Of a DNA stretch of 64,000 nt, positions 17,625 to 32,025 are shown in pieces. The DNA comes from Desulfosporosinus youngiae DSM 17734 (GTDB lineage: Bacteria; Bacillota; Desulfitobacteriia; Desulfitobacteriales; Desulfitobacteriaceae): contig NZ_CM001441.1 in NCBI RefSeq assembly GCF_000244895.1, positions 3,554,226-3,618,225 on the forward strand, given 5' to 3'. A model generated the notes under the pieces. That model was not told the origin of the DNA. It saw nothing but the letters and a program-made list of their open reading frames with translations, and made no database searches. Position numbers and translations under genes: made by a program. Numbering within the stretch: position 1 is the stretch's first letter; each line of letters begins with the position of its first letter.

Positions 17625-18614
17625 ATGTGTACCGCAATGACGCTGAAAACTCAACAGGGTGAGATCTTTCTTGGACGCACCATGGATTTTTCCTATGTAC
17701 TGAACCCACATCTTTATACGATGCCGCGCAATTACCAGTGGTCCAATGCCCTCGGGACGGTTTGTGTCCGCAATCGCTACAGTTATATAGGGGTTGGACA
17801 GACCATTCCTAAAATTACCTTTGCGGACGGCGTCAATGAAATGGGGCTTGCGGCGGCGGCGTTATATTTCTCTGGATATGCCAAGTATAGAGAGCCTGAA
17901 TGTGGGGCACAGACATCCCAATTTGCAGCCACCGAACTTGTCAACTTTTTGCTCGGTATGTGCGGGTCGGTGGAAGAAGCGGCTTTTGCCCTGCAGTCTG
18001 TGCGGATCGTGGGAGTACCTGATGCGGTGACCAATTCCGTCGCTCCGCTGCATTGGATTGTCTGTGATAAAAAAGGACAGTGCCTGACCGTAGAACAGAC
18101 AAAAAACGGCATGCATTTGCTGGCCAACCATGTCGGGGTTCTGTCCAACAGTCCTACTTTTGAGTGGCATATGGAAAATCTGCGCAATTATATGCGGGCT
18201 GCACCGCACCAACCGGAAGGAATAACCTGGGGAGAGCTTGTGCTGACGCCCTTTGGCCAGGGCGGCGGCACAGAGGTGCTTCCAGGCGGTTATACGCCTC
18301 CTGCCCGGTTTGTGCGGACTGTTTTTCAGAAAACCCATGTCCCAATTCCTCAAAACCGGCAGGAAGCAGTCGTGACAGGATTTCATATTCTGGAGGGTGT
18401 CTCCATTCCCCAGGGAGTTGTCCTGACGTCGCGGGGCACGTACGATTACACCCAGTACACGGTTTTTATGAATACCGCAACCTGCGAATACTTTGTCCGA
18501 ACCTACGAAAACAGTCAGGTTTTTACCGCTAAGCTTTCCAGGGCTGAAGCCGAAGCCAAGGTTCCTGTGTCCCTCGGAAAGCTGGTGCGCCCGGCTACCT
18601 TCGAAAAGCTGTAA
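17625..18614 (+). CDS. Choloylglycine hydrolase / penicillin V acylase family protein
   Basis: An Ntn hydrolase of 329 residues. The mature nucleophile Cys2 follows the initiator Met (MCTAMTLKT), and GRTMDFS supplies the Arg/Asp pair around residues 18-21. The family pieces NEMGLAAAALYF and DYTQYTVFMNT (near residue 270) are present. Members hydrolyse linear amides such as conjugated bile salts, penicillin V or acyl-homoserine lactones; which one cannot be told here. There is no signal peptide. GAGGG precedes the ATG. The 3' end overlaps the convergent radical SAM gene by 20 bp. Confidence 0.88.
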   Translation: MCTAMTLKTQQGEIFLGRTMDFSYVLNPHLYTMPRNYQWSNALGTVCVRNRYSYIGVGQTIPKITFADGVNEMGLAAAALYFSGYAKYREPECGAQTSQFAATELVNFLLGMCGSVEEAAFALQSVRIVGVPDAVTNSVAPLHWIVCDKKGQCLTVEQTKNGMHLLANHVGVLSNSPTFEWHMENLRNYMRAAPHQPEGITWGELVLTPFGQGGGTEVLPGGYTPPARFVRTVFQKTHVPIPQNRQEAVVTGFHILEGVSIPQGVVLTSRGTYDYTQYTVFMNTATCEYFVRTYENSQVFTAKLSRAEAEAKVPVSLGKLVRPATFEKL

Positions 18615-19599
18615 CCTCCAGATTCATCCCTGCCAACACCCTTTCTATCTGCCTGCGCTTATCCACTACATAAGCGCCTTCACCGATCTCATAAATATCT
18701 ATATCCGAAGCCCTTGGCGGTGCTTTTCGGGCAATGGATACCCCAAGCAATTGATTGCCACCCCCCGCCAGATACCAAAGAGGTATGTCATCCGTGCTGT
18801 TGCCTGCCGCCAGGCAGATCTCCGTATTGGGCAGCAGAATACGCGCCATAGCTGTGATCAAAGCAGTTTCCCAAGGTGAACAGCGGGGTCTGTCCTGATA
18901 CGGAGTTCCCGGGAAGGGCATAAAGCGGGATAGACGCAGCTGATAGAGATTTCGGAACTGCTTCATAAAAAACAGATGGTCAATTCGGTCTTCATCCGTT
19001 TCGCCAAGGCCCAGCAGCATCATTGAGCGGCTGGGTATATCCGCCTCTTCACAGAATTGCAGCAGTTCACGCCACCGCCCCAGACTGTCTCCGGGCTTGG
19101 CGGCGGCGAAGACCTCCGGAGCGTTGGATTCCAAAGAGCTGGTAATGCTGTCAATACCCAGTTTCTTTAATTCCAGGATCGTTTCTTTCTGAAAGGAGGG
19201 TCCCAGATTGATTTCCAGCTTCAGTCCCGAATGGGCTTTAATCTTCCGCACCAGCTCCAGCAGCTGTTCGTCGTACCCTTCCTTCAGGTCTGTTCCCCCG
19301 CTGATATGGAACTGCTGAATCCCCAGGCCTTCAATGCACTCCAGGCCCTTAAGCAAAACATCCGTGGGAAACATAGTTTCCGTATAAAAGGTACAATAGG
19401 AACAGCGGGGTTTGACCCGGCAGGGAAAAATTCCCCCTGATCCCGAGGACCACCACAGGGCTTTGCCGGATACCCTGTCCCGGATTTGCGAGGCCAAAGC
19501 AAATAATTCATAGGCCTGCTCCGGATTCCGGGCCTTTTCCAAAACAAAAAGAGCTTGCTCCCGGGTTAACTCCTGCTCTCCTGTTAACTTAAAATCCAT
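18595..19599 (-). CDS. Radical SAM enzyme with CX5CX2C motif (HmdB-like)
   Basis: A 334-residue BioB/HydE-type radical SAM protein. The cluster-binding cysteines are C60, C66 and C69 (CRVKPRCSYC), i.e. CX5CX2C rather than the usual CX3CX2C. That spacing is known from HmdB, an enzyme linked to the iron-guanylylpyridinol cofactor of [Fe]-hydrogenase in methanogens. FHISGGTDL and the C-terminal AAGNSTDDIPLWYL and GGGNQLLG follow the same fold. No hmd gene is visible and this is not a methanogen, so its product is unknown. A GAGGG site precedes the ATG. Confidence 0.75.
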   Translation of the reverse strand: MDFKLTGEQELTREQALFVLEKARNPEQAYELFALASQIRDRVSGKALWWSSGSGGIFPCRVKPRCSYCTFYTETMFPTDVLLKGLECIEGLGIQQFHISGGTDLKEGYDEQLLELVRKIKAHSGLKLEINLGPSFQKETILELKKLGIDSITSSLESNAPEVFAAAKPGDSLGRWRELLQFCEEADIPSRSMMLLGLGETDEDRIDHLFFMKQFRNLYQLRLSRFMPFPGTPYQDRPRCSPWETALITAMARILLPNTEICLAAGNSTDDIPLWYLAGGGNQLLGVSIARKAPPRASDIDIYEIGEGAYVVDKRRQIERVLAGMNLEVTAFRR

Positions 19600-19691
19600 C
19601 TTTTTCCCTCTTTTCCTAAAGAAATCTTAACCTAAAATCCCGCATTTTTTATACCTACAAGAAGAAACGCCTTGGGGAATTCTGACCGGGG

Positions 19692-19946
19692 AACCACAGA
19701 TTACACATAAAAAGAACGATAAGAGAAACCACAGATTAACACAGATTTCACAGATTAAGAAGGATTAAGTATAAAAAAATGGCGAAGATGCGAGTCAATG
19801 AAAGCGATAATTATTAATTATCTCAAAGCTACAGGATCAAATCGGCCTTTTATCAGCTTTGGCGAATATCAATTGCGTTACAAGCAATTTGTAGTTTAGA
19901 GCCAAAATATATTTATTCTGTGTTAATCTGTGTAATCTGTGGTTAA
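19692..19946. repeat. Inverted-repeat element of the ACCACAGATTAACACAGATT type
   Basis: A partial copy (AACCACAGATTACACA) at 19692 and a longer one at 19727-19760 face an inverted copy at 19916-19946 (TGTTAATCTGTGTAATCTG). The 470-bp gap between the radical SAM and MoeA-like genes holds this element. The 155 bp between the repeats contains no sustained reading frame. It looks like a small non-coding repeat or the remains of an insertion. Confidence 0.65.
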
Positions 19947-20070
19947 TTAACTGAGTACCTGATTAGTCACAAAAATAATGATTTACAATTCAATTTGGGT
20001 ATAATTTTTCACGGGTATCAAGGATCTTAATATTTCCGCCGGCTTCCCGGTCACGCCCGGAAAGAAGCCT

Positions 20071-21539: not shown

Positions 21540-21700
21540 CATGCTTTTTAAAAACAGATTTCTCTGTTTTTAAGCATCATCCTTCTCACAAGTGAAGGCC
21601 AGACTGTTTCCTGTCTAACCCCGTAAACCCTCCGGTTTAGGCTTAGTATTCATGGGAAGCTTCCTTTAGAATAAAAAGCTCGGATTCAATATTTAATTAT
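21540..21700 (-). promoter_or_regulatory. Structured 5' leader, candidate riboswitch of unknown class
   Basis: Read on the minus strand, successive hairpins precede the terminator. TAAACC-GGAG-GGTTTA extends into CTAAGCC/GGGGTTAG. AGACAG-GAAA-CAGTCT carries a GNRA loop. CCTTC-GAAGG is a short stem. A long stem ATGCTT..ACAGA-GAAA-TCTGT..AAGCAT follows. The order of hairpins and then terminator suggests ligand-controlled attenuation. The gene suggests a molybdenum-cofactor ligand, but I could not align it to the Moco RNA consensus from memory. Confidence 0.45.
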
Positions 21701-22192: not shown

Positions 22193-22993
22193 TCAGATAT
22201 GTAAATCCTTTTTGGAAAAAATAACGATCGCTGCGGTAAACAACACAACCGCCCCGGCAAACAACACGATCATCCCCGCAATCGCCCCGGCTTCTCCCGC
22301 GATTATCCCATTAGTGTCAAATAACGTGAAGAAGGTGGCGTACTTTATATTTTCAAGTTTTTCGTTAAAATTTGATAGCATCTGCAAGATATAGGCCAGC
22401 GCCGGAATTCCCGCGCCCAAGCCCACAGCGTATCGGTTGTCGCTGAAAATACAGGAACACAGGAAGCATATCCCGCCGATGAACAACTGCAAACTTAAAA
22501 GACCGGCGTTGAGCGCCAGCAGCTTCCCGATTTCAAGCTCTCCCGGGAAGGATGCCTCACAGATGATAATTTCCAGCACCGTGACAAACAGGACAAGGGC
22601 AAAAATTCCGGTCGCGATTACTTTCATCTGCGTAAATACGACCGTCCGGCGTTTTACCGGCGCGGCCAGAAGATAGGTCATGGAGCCCCTGTCCACATGG
22701 CGGGCGATTAGCCTGTTGGCGCAAAGTATGGAAAAAACCATAGGAAATATCAACAAAATAAAACCGTACAAATACGAGGACATAAATCCGATCATGGTGG
22801 CGGCACCCGCCGTCATGCCGACCGCAGCCATAATTTCCGGCATTGCTTTGGCATAATCATCCAAGAGGCTCATCATTTCCGGGTCAAACATTGAAATGAT
22901 TATGGAAACATACATGGTTAACACAGCCGCAAAGATCAGCAGCATTTTCCAGCTGCCTTTCATCCCATATTTGTATAATGTAAAATTCAACAT
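22193..22993 (-). CDS. ABC-2 type transporter permease
   Basis: A 266-residue membrane protein with six hydrophobic segments, the topology of ABC-2 permeases. It begins MLNFTLYKYGMKGSWKMLLI. The central RHVDRGSMTYLLAAPVKRRT is the conserved cytoplasmic loop of this class. Its start overlaps the stop of the ATPase gene upstream, so both subunits are co-translated. The substrate is unknown; similar pairs export peptides, antibiotics or lipids. Confidence 0.85.
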   Translation of the reverse strand: MLNFTLYKYGMKGSWKMLLIFAAVLTMYVSIIISMFDPEMMSLLDDYAKAMPEIMAAVGMTAGAATMIGFMSSYLYGFILLIFPMVFSILCANRLIARHVDRGSMTYLLAAPVKRRTVVFTQMKVIATGIFALVLFVTVLEIIICEASFPGELEIGKLLALNAGLLSLQLFIGGICFLCSCIFSDNRYAVGLGAGIPALAYILQMLSNFNEKLENIKYATFFTLFDTNGIIAGEAGAIAGMIVLFAGAVVLFTAAIVIFSKKDLHI

Positions 22994-23877
22994 TATTGGA
23001 CACCTCCGTAATACTGCATAAAGATTTCCTCAAGGCTCTGACTGGAAGCGGACAGGTTGACGACGGGATAACGGTTCAATACCGCAATAAATTCGCGGAT
23101 ATTGTGCTGCACCGTGACGGCGGCGCGGTGATGGGTCAACAGCTCGGTTGTGAGATTTTCCGCACAAAACTCCTCCGCAGCTTTAGCGTTTGCAAAGGTT
23201 ACAATATATTTTTTGACCTGCGCCGCTTTCAGTGTCTCCACGCTGTCCACGGCGGCCAAACGACCGTCTTTGATGATCGATACCCGGTGGCAGGTACGTT
23301 CTACTTCCTCAAACATATGCGAGGACATGAGGATGGTTTTGCCCTTCGCCTTCTCCTCCAGGATCAGTTCTATGAATCGGTTTTGCATGAGCGGATCAAG
23401 GCCGCTGGTCGGTTCGTCGAGAATCAGGACCTCCGGGTCGTGCATAAAAGCGGCGACAATGCCCACTTTCTGCTTCATCCCTTTACTCATTTTTTTGAGC
23501 TTGCCGCGCGCGTCAAGCTCAAAACGGTCGAGCAGTTCTTTTATGCGATCGCTCTTCTTCAACCCCCGGTATTTTTCGGTAAATCGCAAAAAATCCGTAC
23601 CGCTCATATCTTCAAAAAAATTGATCTCCCCAGGAATATAGCCAAGATTTTTCTGAATGGCCGCACTGTCATGCCAACAGTCCAAACCGTTAATGGCGCA
23701 GCTTCCTTTTTCCGGCTGCAAAAATCCCATCAGATGCCGGATTGTTGAGGTTTTTCCGGCTCCGTTGGGACCGAGAAAGCCGAACACCTCGCCTTTTTCC
23801 ACAGAGAAAGAGAGGTCGAACACACCTCGCCCGTTCCCATAGTCTCTTGTCAGGTTTTTGATTTCAATTATGCCCAT
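22993..23877 (-). CDS. ABC transporter ATP-binding protein
   Basis: A 294-residue ATPase. It has Walker A GPNGAGKTST (residues about 34-43), signature MSKGMKQKV, Walker B VLILDEPTSGLD and H-loop MSSHMFEEVE. The C-terminal extension of about 80 residues is typical of the drug/bacteriocin (CcmA-like) subfamily. AGGAGG precedes the ATG. It forms a two-gene operon with the permease gene; no regulator is adjacent. Confidence 0.9.
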   Translation of the reverse strand: MGIIEIKNLTRDYGNGRGVFDLSFSVEKGEVFGFLGPNGAGKTSTIRHLMGFLQPEKGSCAINGLDCWHDSAAIQKNLGYIPGEINFFEDMSGTDFLRFTEKYRGLKKSDRIKELLDRFELDARGKLKKMSKGMKQKVGIVAAFMHDPEVLILDEPTSGLDPLMQNRFIELILEEKAKGKTILMSSHMFEEVERTCHRVSIIKDGRLAAVDSVETLKAAQVKKYIVTFANAKAAEEFCAENLTTELLTHHRAAVTVQHNIREFIAVLNRYPVVNLSASSQSLEEIFMQYYGGVQ

Positions 23878-26710: not shown

Positions 26711-28021
26711 TCATTTCCCCGGTCCGCCTTTATGTAAATCCAGCATTTCCTTAGCCCGCCGGGGATCACCGCCGGATTTAGCAATAATTTCACTCACTTG
26801 ATCATAGCCTAAGGCGGGAGTATAGGCGGCGGCAAAGGCCCAGGATGACTCCAGAAGCTCCCTGCACCTTTCGGCATTGGGCTTGATCAGCTCAATGCAC
26901 CTGGTGCGAAACAGCTCCGCGGCATTGAGCAAAAGCCCCAGGCTTTCCAGGAGGGAATCGGCAATCAAGGGCAGGAAAGGATTCAGCTCAAATTCCCCGT
27001 GAGAAGCGGCGGCTGAAATGGCCCCGTCGTTGGCCATAACCCTCATGGCCACCTGCATCACCATTTCGGGAAGCACGGGATTTACCTTGCCGGGCATAAT
27101 GGTGCTGCCCATTTGCAGGGGGGCCAGGGTTATTTCCCCCAGTCCCCCCCTGGGTCCCGAATTCATGAGGCGCAGATCATTGGCTATCTTCATGAGATTC
27201 ACGGCCAGAGCCTTGAGCAGCCCCGATACCTCCACGAAAACATCGTTGTTCTGAGTCATATCCATGGGATACTCGGCCTGGGCCAGGCCGATTCCCGTTA
27301 ATTCCCTGAGGACTTCAATCACTCCGAAGCGGTATTTCCGTTCTGCGTTGCTGCCGCTGCCCACGGCTGTTCCGCCCATGTTAACCAGCCGCAGCCTCTC
27401 TTCCACTTTGTACAAACGCCAGCGGTCCCTGGCCACGGCCTGGGCATAGGCGCCGAATTCCTGACCCAGGGTAATGGGCACCGCGTCCATCAGCTCCGTC
27501 CGGCCCAGCTTCACAATCCCGTCAAATTCATTCTCTTTGGCCTGGAGGGCCTGCTGGAGCCGGGCACAGGCTTCGCTGAGCTTTCTCAGCATCTCAATGG
27601 CCGCTATGCGCAGGGCTGTGGGGTAGACATCGTTAGTGGACTGGCCCCGGTTCACATCGTCCAGGGGATGGACAATGTCATAACGGCCCTCCACAAAGCC
27701 CAGCTCCCGGAGGGTGAGATTGGCAATCACTTCATTGACATTCATATGGGCGGAGGTCCCGGCCCCGCCCTGGAGGGCTTCCGTTACGAAGGAGTCATCG
27801 GCTTTGCCCTGGAGAATCAGGTCGCAGGCCCGGACCATCCCCTCATACACTCCCTCCCGGCCCACCCCCAGCTTCCGATAGGTCAGGGCCGCCGCCTTTT
27901 TGACGGTGACAAGGGCATAGACCAGCTGCAAATTCGTTTTTCGATGCTCAAGCTTAAAATTCTCCAGGGCCAGAGCGGTTTGGCTGCCGTAGAGTTTGCC
28001 CGCTTCACTGTCCATCGCCAT
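26711..28021 (-). CDS. aspA: Aspartate ammonia-lyase family protein in the hyd operon
   Basis: An aspartase/fumarase superfamily lyase of about 436 residues: aspartate to fumarate plus ammonia. The signature GSTIMPGKVNP is at about residue 306, with TELMDAVPITLGQE and STNDVYPTA earlier. The substrate could differ from aspartate. Two ATGs are possible (28021 and 28015), both next to GGAGGTGGAGG. The start overlaps the hydF stop, so translation is coupled. Several Clostridia have such a lyase among the hyd maturation genes; a supply of ammonia for the dithiomethylamine bridge is a plausible inference. Confidence 0.88.
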   Translation of the reverse strand: MAMDSEAGKLYGSQTALALENFKLEHRKTNLQLVYALVTVKKAAALTYRKLGVGREGVYEGMVRACDLILQGKADDSFVTEALQGGAGTSAHMNVNEVIANLTLRELGFVEGRYDIVHPLDDVNRGQSTNDVYPTALRIAAIEMLRKLSEACARLQQALQAKENEFDGIVKLGRTELMDAVPITLGQEFGAYAQAVARDRWRLYKVEERLRLVNMGGTAVGSGSNAERKYRFGVIEVLRELTGIGLAQAEYPMDMTQNNDVFVEVSGLLKALAVNLMKIANDLRLMNSGPRGGLGEITLAPLQMGSTIMPGKVNPVLPEMVMQVAMRVMANDGAISAAASHGEFELNPFLPLIADSLLESLGLLLNAAELFRTRCIELIKPNAERCRELLESSWAFAAAYTPALGYDQVSEIIAKSGGDPRRAKEMLDLHKGGPGK

Positions 28022-29222
28022 CCTCCACCTCCGCCAGGATATGCGGGAACATGGCAATGCTTCGCTTTAAAATTCCCTGCATATAGGCAATGAGAATCCC
28101 GTAATTGGTGAAGGGCACTCCCTGGTCGGCGGCACACTGGCGGCGGTAATGCATTTCCCGCTCGTTGAGCATGCAGCCGCCGCAGTGCACGATCAGCCCG
28201 TAAGGGGAGAGATCGTCGGGGAATTCCGTCCCTGAGGTGAACCGGATATCCACTTGCTTTTGGGTGTAATTTTTTATCCAGCGGGGCAGCTTCACCGTGC
28301 CGATATCGTCGCACTGCCGGTGATGGGTGCAGCCCTCGGCAATGAGAATCCGCTCCCCCTCTGCCAGGGCGTCCAGGGCTTTGGCTCCCTTAACGGCAGC
28401 CTCCAGGGTCCCCTTGTACCTGGCGAAAAGAATGGAAAAGGAGGTCAGGAAAATATCCTGGGGTGTGTCTGCCGCCACCTTGGCAAAGACCTGGCTGTCG
28501 GTAATCACCAGCTTCGGCTTTTTGCCCAGGCCGGCCAGAGTTTCCCGCAGCTCAAACTCTTTAACGACAATGGCCGCGGCGTCGGCTTCCAGAATATCCC
28601 GGATGGTCTGCTGCTGGGGCAGGATCAGCCTGCCCTTGGGGGCCGCCTTGTCAATAGGGGTAACCAGCACCACAAAATCCCCGGGATTCAGCAGGTCTCC
28701 CACAATTTTCAGCTTGGCTTCCTCGCTGACCGCCAAGGCCCCGATTTTCTCCTTCAGTTTTTCTATATTATAGCCCGTCACCGCACTGACCCAGAGTTCA
28801 TGCTCATTTCCGGGCTTTTCTTCTCCCATCAGGTCCGCTTTATTGTAGGCCACCACATAATTGATCTTTTTCCTGCCAAACAGAGCCAGCAGTTCTTCAT
28901 CCTCCCGGCTTTTGCCGGCAACTGCGTCGATAACCAGCACCGCCACATCGGTTTTGTTAAGGACCTGACGGCTTTTCCGGACCCGCAGCTCCCCCAGGTC
29001 CCCTTCGTCGTCAATGCCGGGGGTATCGATAATCATGACCGGACCCAGGGGCAGAAGTTCCATGGCTTTAGAGACGGGGTCCGTGGTCGTGCCCCTGACC
29101 TGGGAAACCACAGCCAGGTCCTGGCCCGTGACGGCATTGACCAGGCTGGATTTGCCGGCGTTTCTCCTGCCGAAAAAGCCGATGTGAACCCGGTTGGCCG
29201 AAGGTGTTTCATTCAATCCCAT
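28005..29222 (-). CDS. hydF: [FeFe]-hydrogenase maturation GTPase HydF
   Basis: The scaffold that assembles the 2Fe subcluster and passes it to the hydrogenase. The GTPase domain shows GRRNAGKSSL (G1), DTPG (G3) and NKAD (G4). The C-terminal cluster-binding region shows EGCTHHRQCDD and HCGGC, the family CxH...HCxxC ligand set. Length is about 405 residues. I chose the ATG at 29222, 9 nt after AGGAGG; one at 29228 is too close to that site. It follows hydG by 13 bp and overlaps aspA. Confidence 0.95.
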   Translation of the reverse strand: MGLNETPSANRVHIGFFGRRNAGKSSLVNAVTGQDLAVVSQVRGTTTDPVSKAMELLPLGPVMIIDTPGIDDEGDLGELRVRKSRQVLNKTDVAVLVIDAVAGKSREDEELLALFGRKKINYVVAYNKADLMGEEKPGNEHELWVSAVTGYNIEKLKEKIGALAVSEEAKLKIVGDLLNPGDFVVLVTPIDKAAPKGRLILPQQQTIRDILEADAAAIVVKEFELRETLAGLGKKPKLVITDSQVFAKVAADTPQDIFLTSFSILFARYKGTLEAAVKGAKALDALAEGERILIAEGCTHHRQCDDIGTVKLPRWIKNYTQKQVDIRFTSGTEFPDDLSPYGLIVHCGGCMLNEREMHYRRQCAADQGVPFTNYGILIAYMQGILKRSIAMFPHILAEVEDGDGQ

Positions 29223-29235
29223 GTTCATCAGCCTC

Positions 29236-30654
29236 CTAAAACCGGAAATCCCGGCTGCCACTCGCTATTTTCAGCAGGTTCTCCCGGGCGATCTCCCGGA
29301 CCTTGTCCTTGGGAATGGCCGGAATTTCCTTTTGGATCAGGACTTCCCCGGTGGTTTTGGTGGCCTCTGAAGCGTAATCCTCCAGATATTCCTTGAGGGT
29401 CATCAGGGCATTGGGATGGCAGCAGTTCTGAATCTGCCCGCTTTTCAAAAGACTCATAAAGCGGTCGCCGGTTCGGCCCTCCCTGTAGCAGGCGGTGCAG
29501 AAGCTGGGAATAAAGCCTAAGTCCATCAGCCATTTCACCACCTCATCCAGGGTTCTGGTGTCGCTGACCTCAAACTGCCGGGAATCGTCGTCTTCCGCTT
29601 CCGGCTGGGCATAGCCCCCCACGCTGGTTTTGGAGCCGCCGCTGATTTGAGAAATCCCCAGCTTAAGGACCCGTTCCCGACATTCCTTGCTTTCCCGGGT
29701 GGAGACGATCATGCCGGTGTAGGGCACAGCCACCCGGATACAGGCTACCAGCTTGGCAAAGATATCGTCATTAATGCCGTTGGCAAAGGAGGAGGGGTCG
29801 ATATCGTCAGCCTGGCGGATTCTGGGGACGCTGATGGTATGAGGACCGACGCCGAAAACCTCCTCCAGGTGCTCGGCATGCATAAGCAGGGCCGCGAATT
29901 CGTAGCGGTAGCCTTCAAGGCCGAACAATACCCCCAGGCCCACGTCATCAATGCCTCCCTGCATAGCTCTGTCCATGGCTTCCGTATGATAGGCATAATT
30001 GTGTTTAGGTCCTGTGGGATGCAGTTGTTCATAGCTTTCCTTGTGGTAGGTTTCCTGAAATAAAATATAAGTTCCGATCCCGGCGTCCCTGAGCTTTTGA
30101 TAGTTTTCCACCGTAGTGGCCGCGATATTGACATTCACCCGGCGGATGGCCCCGTTTTTATGTTTTATGCTGTAAATGGTGTCGATGCACTCCAGTATGT
30201 ATTCAATGGGATTGTGGACCGGGTCTTCACCGGCTTCCAGAGCCAGACGTTTATGACCCATATCCTGGAGGGCTATCACTTCCCTGCGGATTTCCTCCTG
30301 AGTCATTTTCTTCCTGGGGATGTGCTTATTTTTCAGGTGATAGGGACAGTACAGGCAGCCGTTGATACAGTAATTGGAGAGGTAGAGGGGGGCAAACATG
30401 ACAATACGGTTCCCGTAAAAATCCTTTTTAATCTGCTCCGCCAAAGCGTAGATTTCCCGGTTTTTTTCCTCGTTCTCACAGTCCAGCAGAACGGCGGCCT
30501 CCCGGTGGGAAAGCCCCTGGCGCAATTTGGCTTTGGCGATGATCCTGTCGATGAGTTCCAGATTGTTTTTGTTCTTTTCCGCGTACTCCAGGGTGCTGAG
30601 GACTTCTTCATGGGCTATAAATTCTTCTGCTTGGGCTGATTTTGGATTATACAT
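29236..30654 (-). CDS. hydG: [FeFe]-hydrogenase maturation radical SAM tyrosine lyase HydG
   Basis: Cleaves tyrosine to give the CO and cyanide ligands of the H-cluster. It has 472 residues, with the radical SAM motif CINGCLYC (C96, C100, C103) and the C-terminal auxiliary cluster motif CTACYREGRTGDRF followed by QNCCHP. The ATG at 30654 is preferred to an in-frame TTG two codons earlier, with AAGGAA 8 nt upstream. It lies between hydE and hydF in the operon. Confidence 0.96.
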   Translation of the reverse strand: MYNPKSAQAEEFIAHEEVLSTLEYAEKNKNNLELIDRIIAKAKLRQGLSHREAAVLLDCENEEKNREIYALAEQIKKDFYGNRIVMFAPLYLSNYCINGCLYCPYHLKNKHIPRKKMTQEEIRREVIALQDMGHKRLALEAGEDPVHNPIEYILECIDTIYSIKHKNGAIRRVNVNIAATTVENYQKLRDAGIGTYILFQETYHKESYEQLHPTGPKHNYAYHTEAMDRAMQGGIDDVGLGVLFGLEGYRYEFAALLMHAEHLEEVFGVGPHTISVPRIRQADDIDPSSFANGINDDIFAKLVACIRVAVPYTGMIVSTRESKECRERVLKLGISQISGGSKTSVGGYAQPEAEDDDSRQFEVSDTRTLDEVVKWLMDLGFIPSFCTACYREGRTGDRFMSLLKSGQIQNCCHPNALMTLKEYLEDYASEATKTTGEVLIQKEIPAIPKDKVREIARENLLKIASGSRDFRF

Positions 30655-30710
30655 ATTCAAAATTCCTTTCTTAGCGGGTCAGACAGGTCTTCCCCTTCAG
30701 TATTTGTTAT

Positions 30711-31754
30711 TCAGAGGATGGATTTATGGTCGCCGCGGCTGACGGCTATTTTGTAGCCGATTCCCTCGATCCGCCCCTCCAGGCAATGCCGGCATTCCGC
30801 AGCTTCATCCCCGGTGCAGATTTTATTGTCATAGAGCAGGTATTTTCCCCTGACATCCCGGGGCGAGAGATTAGGCATGACCACATTTCCCCCGGCCCGG
30901 ATGCCCAGTTCCCGCCCTTCAGGATGAATGGTGCCCAGGGCGGTGGTGGCCGGCAGTAGCACTGTGGGCAGGAGCAAGCGGATCAGGCCCATTAAAAATA
31001 AGACTAGCTCCAGGTCCCCCGCTTTTTCCCGGGCCAGGGGCGTGTCATGGTGAGGAATAAAGGGACCGATACCCACCATGTGGGGATTGAGTTCTTTGAT
31101 GAACAACAGATCCTCAACCAGGCAATCCGTGGTCTGAAAGGGCGACCCTACCATAAAGCCGCAGCCCACCTGATAGCCGATCTCCTTCAAATCCCACAAA
31201 CACTGTTTTCTGTTTTTGAGCAGCATTTTCGGAGGGTGCAGTCTGGCATAATGCTCCCCATTGGCCGTTTCATGCCGGAGCAGGTAGCGGTCCGCTCCCG
31301 CTTCAAAAAAAGCCCGGTAAGTTTCATAGCTTTTTTCGCCAAGGGAAAGGGTGAGAGCGCAATCGGGGTGATTCCTTTTAATGGAGCGAATAATATCCGT
31401 CATCCTCTCCTCCGTATAGTACCCGTCTTCCCCGCCCTGGAGAACAAAGGTGCGAAAACCCAGTTCATAGCCCGCCTCACAGCAGCCGAGGATTTCCTCC
31501 TTGCTTAAACGGTAGCGCTCCGCCTTAGCGTTGCTTTTCCGGATACCGCAATAGTAGCAGTCGTTTTTACAGTAATTCGTGAATTCTATCAGACCCCGGA
31601 TATACACATCTTGGCCGTAGTTTTCAGCTTGTACCGCTCTCGCTTTGGCAAAAAGATAGTCGGAGAGCTGAGGCGAGCGGTTTTCCAGGAGTTCTTTTAA
31701 TTCGGCGGCTTCCAATTCCCTTGTCTTATGCAGCTTATCGATCAGTTTTTTCAT
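30711..31754 (-). CDS. hydE: [FeFe]-hydrogenase maturation radical SAM enzyme HydE
   Basis: A radical SAM enzyme acting on the iron-cysteine synthon during H-cluster assembly. Radical SAM cysteines CKNDCYYC fall at about 62, 66 and 69, matching Thermotoga HydE. The optional auxiliary set CTGDEAAECRHC (CX7CX2C) is also present. Length is about 347 residues. There are two possible ATGs (31754 and 31766); GAGGG favours the inner one. The start region overlaps the TM1266-family gene end. Confidence 0.95.
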   Translation of the reverse strand: MKKLIDKLHKTRELEAAELKELLENRSPQLSDYLFAKARAVQAENYGQDVYIRGLIEFTNYCKNDCYYCGIRKSNAKAERYRLSKEEILGCCEAGYELGFRTFVLQGGEDGYYTEERMTDIIRSIKRNHPDCALTLSLGEKSYETYRAFFEAGADRYLLRHETANGEHYARLHPPKMLLKNRKQCLWDLKEIGYQVGCGFMVGSPFQTTDCLVEDLLFIKELNPHMVGIGPFIPHHDTPLAREKAGDLELVLFLMGLIRLLLPTVLLPATTALGTIHPEGRELGIRAGGNVVMPNLSPRDVRGKYLLYDNKICTGDEAAECRHCLEGRIEGIGYKIAVSRGDHKSIL

Positions 31755-32025
31755 GAGATCCCTCATTTTCCCCCTTACCTGTTACTTTGGAATAGACCGC
31801 TTTGGTGCTGACTCCCGGCAGTCTGCCCAGCTTTCCCGACAGAGCGCTGATAACATCCTGGGGGGCGTCAACAGCCAGGCTGATGATACTGATGGCTTTT
31901 TCACGGTAGGGAATCCCCATTCTGCCGATAATGTACTGCCCGTAATTATGTAGAATCCCATTCAATTTTTCCACAGAGTCAATGTCCTCAACAATAATTC
32001 CGATAATAGCCACTCTTGTCTCCAT
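31735..32025 (-). CDS. TM1266 family iron-only hydrogenase system regulator
   Basis: A small 96-residue ACT-like (NikR C-terminal-like) protein: RVAIIGIIVEDIDSVEKLN, then YGQYIIGRMGIPYRE and ISIISLAVDAP. The family almost always accompanies hydE, hydG and hydF, but its mode of action is unproven. It has no DNA-binding segment of its own. AAGGAGG precedes the ATG, and it is first in the operon. Confidence 0.9.
   Translation of the reverse strand: METRVAIIGIIVEDIDSVEKLNGILHNYGQYIIGRMGIPYREKAISIISLAVDAPQDVISALSGKLGRLPGVSTKAVYSKVTGKGENEGSHEKTDR

Follow-up and report, generated by a model that had tools for sequence, protein, structure and literature searches.

The gene considered here lies in a 64,000-nucleotide stretch of the Desulfosporosinus youngiae DSM 17734 genome (the window; NZ_CM001441.1, positions 3,554,226 to 3,618,225) and encodes a radical SAM enzyme resembling HmdB. 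Read along the minus strand, the locus begins with a molybdenum/tungsten cofactor riboswitch aptamer (RF01055), continues with a divergent MoeA-like gene and ends with the HmdB-like gene (Table 1). Neither the aptamer nor the intervening MoeA-like gene had been recorded in the initial annotation of this DNA, which had correctly described a convergent Ntn-hydrolase gene, here of the choloylglycine hydrolase type, as sharing the 3′ end of the HmdB-like gene; the overlap is 20 bp. No transporter gene was found at the HmdB-like locus in the window. Just upstream of the riboswitch, on the same strand, is a DrrAB-like pair of an ABC-2 permease and an ATPase, which is a possible exporter.

Table 1. 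Features of the window discussed in the text
Feature	Position	Strand	Basis
Choloylglycine-hydrolase-type gene	17625-18614	+	
HmdB-like CX5CX2C radical SAM enzyme, 334 aa	18595-19599	-	ORF, motif, profiles, fold
Spacer between the MoeA-like and HmdB-like genes, 471 bp, with inverted-repeat element	19600-20070		arms at about 19692-19773 and 19906-19944
Divergent MoeA-like protein, 431 aa	20071-21366	-	profile searches; N-terminal four-cysteine stretch CSSATCTGCATRC
Molybdenum/tungsten cofactor riboswitch aptamer RF01055, upstream of MoeA-like gene	21563-21697	-	71.5 bits
DrrAB-like ABC-2 permease and ATPase pair	22193-23877	-	
Aspartate ammonia-lyase gene	26711-28057		
HydF	28005-29261		
HydG	29236-30660		
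HydE	30711-31766		

Translation of the HmdB-like gene places C60, C66 and C69 in the stretch FPCRVKPRCSYCTF, confirming the CX5CX2C spacing that had been reported earlier. The protein belongs to the radical SAM superfamily by its Pfam Radical_SAM score (55.6 bits against a cut-off of 29.5, with a weak BATS match in addition), its three cluster cysteines and its barrel fold. An AlphaFold2 model (pLDDT 94.8) matched HydE, PylB and BioB over its full length with Z scores of 33.2, 31.6 and 31.6, respectively, and an rmsd of 2.7-3.0 over 304-313 residues, although those enzymes carry CX3CX2C and fall outside the CX5CX2C clade described below. Among NCBIfam models the best match was HmdB, TIGR03957 (E 2.2e-35, 122 bits), followed by BioB (69 bits). 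The TIGR03957 equivalog cut-off is 320.9 bits, far above the score of the window enzyme, so that by this model we class the protein as a relative of HmdB and not as a member. Like HmdB/HcgA, the family has a KPG motif and no additional invariant cysteines: in a 31-sequence family alignment the three motif cysteines were the only invariant ones, indicating that the HmdB-like family has no conserved auxiliary cluster. HmdB/HcgA is the pyridinol-forming radical SAM enzyme of the FeGP-cofactor (PMC10100467, PMC3087415), and HcgA carries out the SAM-dependent formation of 6-carboxymethyl-5-methyl-4-hydroxy-2-pyridinol from a small precursor (PMC10100467).

We gathered family members by searching relatives, a phylum sample, genome contigs and an archaeal phylum sample. 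HmdB-like proteins were found in Bacillota, Thermodesulfobacteriota, Pseudomonadota, Acidobacteriota and methanogens. All 56 sequences of the HmdB-like clade and all three true HmdB sequences carry CX5CX2C, and PylB, HydE, HydG, BioB and Mqn sequences carry CX3CX2C. In a 49-sequence tree, from which long branches were excluded and which held only three HmdB sequences, the CX5CX2C clade, including HmdB/HcgA, separated from HydE and PylB with support of 100/99. True HmdB formed a single group (99/97), and 40 HmdB-like sequences formed its sister group (100/98). The window enzyme grouped with its orthologue in the relative G032, to which it is 76-78% identical, and with the Acetobacterium and Sporobacter proteins. 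The trees and the motif therefore reject membership in HydE or BioB, and the reading of the spacing as an isolated insertion is rejected as well, since an entire well-supported clade has it. The proposal that the enzyme is HmdB-like was thus borne out, with the spacing as a clade feature common to true HmdB/HcgA. On these sequences the family appears to be sister to HmdB and not nested within it, a placement that is not final because a quick 69-sequence tree grouped three HmdB-like sequences with HmdB (support 90). Further radical SAM proteins were also noted. A 279-aa protein at L027:19003-19839 (G014) also carries CX5CX2C and lies within an uptake cluster, outside the HmdB-like clade, and three PylB-like (methylornithine synthase-type) proteins, assigned by clade only, occur in a single genome (L052, L053 and L054 of G000).

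The aptamer upstream of the MoeA-like gene was detected by cmscan at full length, well above the gathering score of 36, and the folding energy of the region gave a z of -3.2. Its P3 stem is present; according to PMC2408646, P3-containing RNAs accompany Moco genes and P3-lacking RNAs accompany Tuco genes. The MoeA-like protein falls short of canonical MoeA (207 bits against 534 bits for the best NCBIfam model), and no MoeA_C domain was detected in it, but it retains D59, D228 and D259 of E. coli MoeA. The HmdB-like operons of relatives carry MoeA-like genes of this class. Its four-cysteine stretch, C-x4-C-x2-C-x3-C, could bind a metal or an Fe-S cluster; the same stretch occurs in L025 and a variant form in L061. 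The spacer that separates the MoeA-like and HmdB-like genes contains an inverted-repeat element (19692-19944) of the CACAGATTAACACAGATT type. Searches of the spacer gave no clear remnant of a transporter gene, the only convincing matches being the two flanking genes, and its minus strand gave no match resembling a terminator, which makes co-transcription of the two genes plausible.

The arrangement recurs elsewhere in the genome and in relatives. RF01055 occurs eight times in the window genome, and five of these aptamers lie at MoeA-like, FecCD or HmdB-like loci. Seven genes in the genome encode MoeA_N: three score 129-149 bits and are canonical, and four score 78-87 bits and are divergent. 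Each of the divergent genes is downstream of an RF01055; one is the gene in the window, and the other three are at FecCD loci. Counting the window, same-strand RF01055 precedes 19 HmdB-like genes in 16 loci that span several families and phyla, where pairs were defined by position and strand and by the lack of any intervening opposite-strand gene from the profiled families. In Sporobacter the aptamer lies directly before the HmdB-like gene (201 nt in L079; 51 nt in L128, measured to the open frame), and in L032 and L034 it is followed by a pair of genes for a binding protein and the HmdB-like enzyme. No RF01055 was found in the scanned loci of Acetobacterium, Pseudomonadota, Acidobacteriota and archaea, where some contigs stop short of the operon start. 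In G032 a single run comprises RF01055, MoeA1, NifHDK-like genes, MoeA2, FecCD, ATPase, SBP and the HmdB-like gene. The window genome has 61-87% identical parts of this run in dispersed form: the window keeps MoeA1 with the HmdB-like gene, MoeA2 (78% identical to that of G032) is at another riboswitch locus about 47 kb away, and FecCD, ATPase and SBP (77, 72 and 61% identical, respectively) are at a third locus.

An aptamer upstream of Mo-cofactor genes is the arrangement of known Moco/Tuco riboswitch regulons, and Regulski et al. 2008 (PMC2408646) count eight RF01055 RNAs in D. hafniense and no fewer than 15 in S. wolfei; in the accessible text, neither a radical SAM enzyme nor FecCD uptake genes were found among the targets. 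We conclude that the HmdB-like gene very probably belongs to a molybdenum/tungsten-cofactor-responsive regulon. As an alternative regulator, a cobalamin riboswitch was rejected: the single case lies downstream of XdhC in L062 and not at an HmdB-like operon. L062, together with L061 and L065 (all in the same genome, G000), is a further riboswitch-led locus with MoeA-like and FecCD uptake genes, and one of the three also carries DUF364, a methyltransferase and XdhC.

Genes near family members were counted by profile searches of six-frame segments, as longest-ORF calls misread GC-rich loci. Loci had been picked by similarity of the enzyme and not by their neighbors, and the count covers 53 family genes whose flanks add up to at least 4 kb. 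SBP, FecCD or TonB genes lie within 5 kb of 45 of them and of none of the three true HmdB genes. Peripla_BP_2 binding proteins, FecCD permeases and ATPases are beside most family genes, with TonB siderophore-type receptors near those of Gram-negative members. FecCD genes accompany 38/53, compared with about 2% expected by chance (estimated from 11 FecCD genes in 5.66 Mb); the 53 genes are related and not independent, though the pattern covers several phyla. Other neighbors were divergent MoeA (11/53), DUF364/DUF4213 (10/53, none in the window), methyltransferases (9/53), nitrogenase-like subunits, FmdE, a ModA-like SBP and a ModD-like QRPTase. The accessible part of PMC2954201 proposes that DUF364 (PF04016, Dhaf4260), found beside rare-metal uptake genes, acts in metal-chelator synthesis, and makes no mention of radical SAM partners. 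The SBPs of the family match HI_1472/MolA, of the MolBCA type (FecCD family) of molybdate or tungstate uptake, at an E of about 2e-11; other metal-chelate SBPs match equally well or better, and homology does not single out a transporter substrate. MolA binds molybdate and tungstate. We also observed NifH and NifD/NifK-like proteins in uptake operons (L064:5255-7851 of G000, L025:1700-4966, L128 and L081); for the NifK-like protein of L025 the nearest models are BchB and NifE.

Taken with the riboswitch, these neighborhoods suggest that the most likely role of the gene is in acquiring molybdenum or tungsten and not in hydrogen metabolism. Our preferred reading, to which we assign a probability of roughly 0.45 for the full mechanism, is that a shortage of Moco induces the enzyme, which then forms a small ligand for Mo/W acquisition. 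When Moco is scarce, the riboswitch would allow both the MoeA-like and the HmdB-like gene to be expressed. C60, C66 and C69 would hold one [4Fe-4S] cluster, and the enzyme would cleave SAM and take a hydrogen from a small soluble substrate. The product would most likely be a small HcgA-like ligand, perhaps, by analogy with HcgA, a heterocycle of the pyridinol type. Acting with FecCD-type transporters, DUF364 proteins, methyltransferases and divergent MoeA of the same regulon, this ligand would chelate molybdate or tungstate or pass it on; the genes for these partners lie in a single operon in relatives and are dispersed in the window genome. The suggestion in the initial annotation that the enzyme makes a different metallocofactor or modifies a heterocycle fits this evidence.

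We therefore regard these proteins as a sister family of HcgA within the radical SAM enzymes, with a biological setting that differs from that of HcgA. Earlier descriptions made the CX5CX2C type unique to the [Fe]-hydrogenase pathway; in our results it is one branch within a larger clade, and the remaining members are linked to Moco/Tuco riboswitches and to genes for high-affinity uptake. We found no earlier description of the HmdB-like family in the accessible literature. A broader and more doubtful proposal is that this widespread, unrecognised family makes a new class of Mo/W ligand, molybdophore-like, induced by Moco/Tuco riboswitches and retrieved through FecCD/TonB systems. If true, the [Fe]-hydrogenase cofactor pathway and metal acquisition would have ligand chemistry in common. 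The regulon also offers a defined regulatory signal for finding an HcgA-like product outside methanogens and a handle on the scavenging of molybdenum and tungsten by anaerobes.

The strongest competing explanation keeps the regulon and reverses the direction, with the enzyme dismantling or remodeling an imported Mo/W chelate or a scavenged cofactor in the cytosol and so freeing the metal. The main argument for it is that no conserved exporter was seen in HmdB-like clusters, as a secreted chelator would need one; the adjacency of uptake SBPs, reduced in L032 and L034 to minimal units of SBP and HmdB-like gene, also agrees with salvage. However, the sister enzyme HcgA is biosynthetic (PMC10100467), and synthesis is also suggested by the presence of methyltransferases and DUF364 in the clusters; we regard salvage as somewhat unlikely.

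Ligand formation for acquisition was also weighed against a purely internal role, in which the enzyme modifies molybdopterin or builds the organic part of an unknown intracellular Mo/W cofactor and the MoeA-like and nitrogenase-like proteins are its metal-handling partners. The recurrence of MoeA-like, FmdE and NifHDK-like neighbors and the three aspartates retained by the MoeA-like protein (P0002) are consistent with such a role, but the minimal units and the TonB receptors of Gram-negative members point to uptake, which makes it improbable. Less probable still is that the family takes part in importing some other metal or chelate (iron, cobalt, corrinoid or vanadium) and that the riboswitch is a lineage-specific overlay. 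The nearest NCBIfam models of the FecCD permeases are indeed of the BtuC and Fe types, a distant member adjoins CbiM (L039) and several loci lack RF01055; against this stand the spread of the 16 riboswitch-led loci over several families and phyla, the location of the lone cobalamin riboswitch away from HmdB-like operons, and the MoeA, FmdE, ModA-like and ModD-like neighbors.

The initial annotation had placed the enzyme in the setting of hydrogen metabolism, and this tie did not hold up. As it had stated, no [Fe]-hydrogenase gene is visible: the PF03201 (hmd) profile gave no match in the single-contig 5.66-Mb genome, with a positive M. jannaschii control. Of 27 genomes, HMD was present in exactly three, those with true HmdB, and the 24 that carry HmdB-like genes all lacked it; hcgG (PF10113) was likewise present in the three true-HmdB genomes and absent from the window genome and two relatives. 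The link to [Fe]-hydrogenase is rejected on the absence of both genes. The [FeFe]-hydrogenase maturation genes for HydF, HydG and HydE were confirmed, their operon beginning about 8.4 kb from the HmdB-like gene; this operon stands apart as a unit and includes a HydE gene of its own, and profile searches of the flanks of relatives' HmdB-like genes gave no HydE-like match, the context in the window genome and in others being the Moco/tungsten-cofactor riboswitch and FecCD/TonB uptake genes. A hydrogenase-cofactor enzyme, either an HmdB left after loss of hmd or an accessory of the nearby maturation operon, is therefore very improbable despite HmdB being the top NCBIfam match and the operon being close, given the hmd and hcgG distribution, the sister position to HmdB and the Moco riboswitch leader. 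The hydEGF operon ends with an aspartate ammonia-lyase gene, in line with the role of ammonia-lyases in [FeFe]-hydrogenase maturation reported in the accessible part of PMC11736057.
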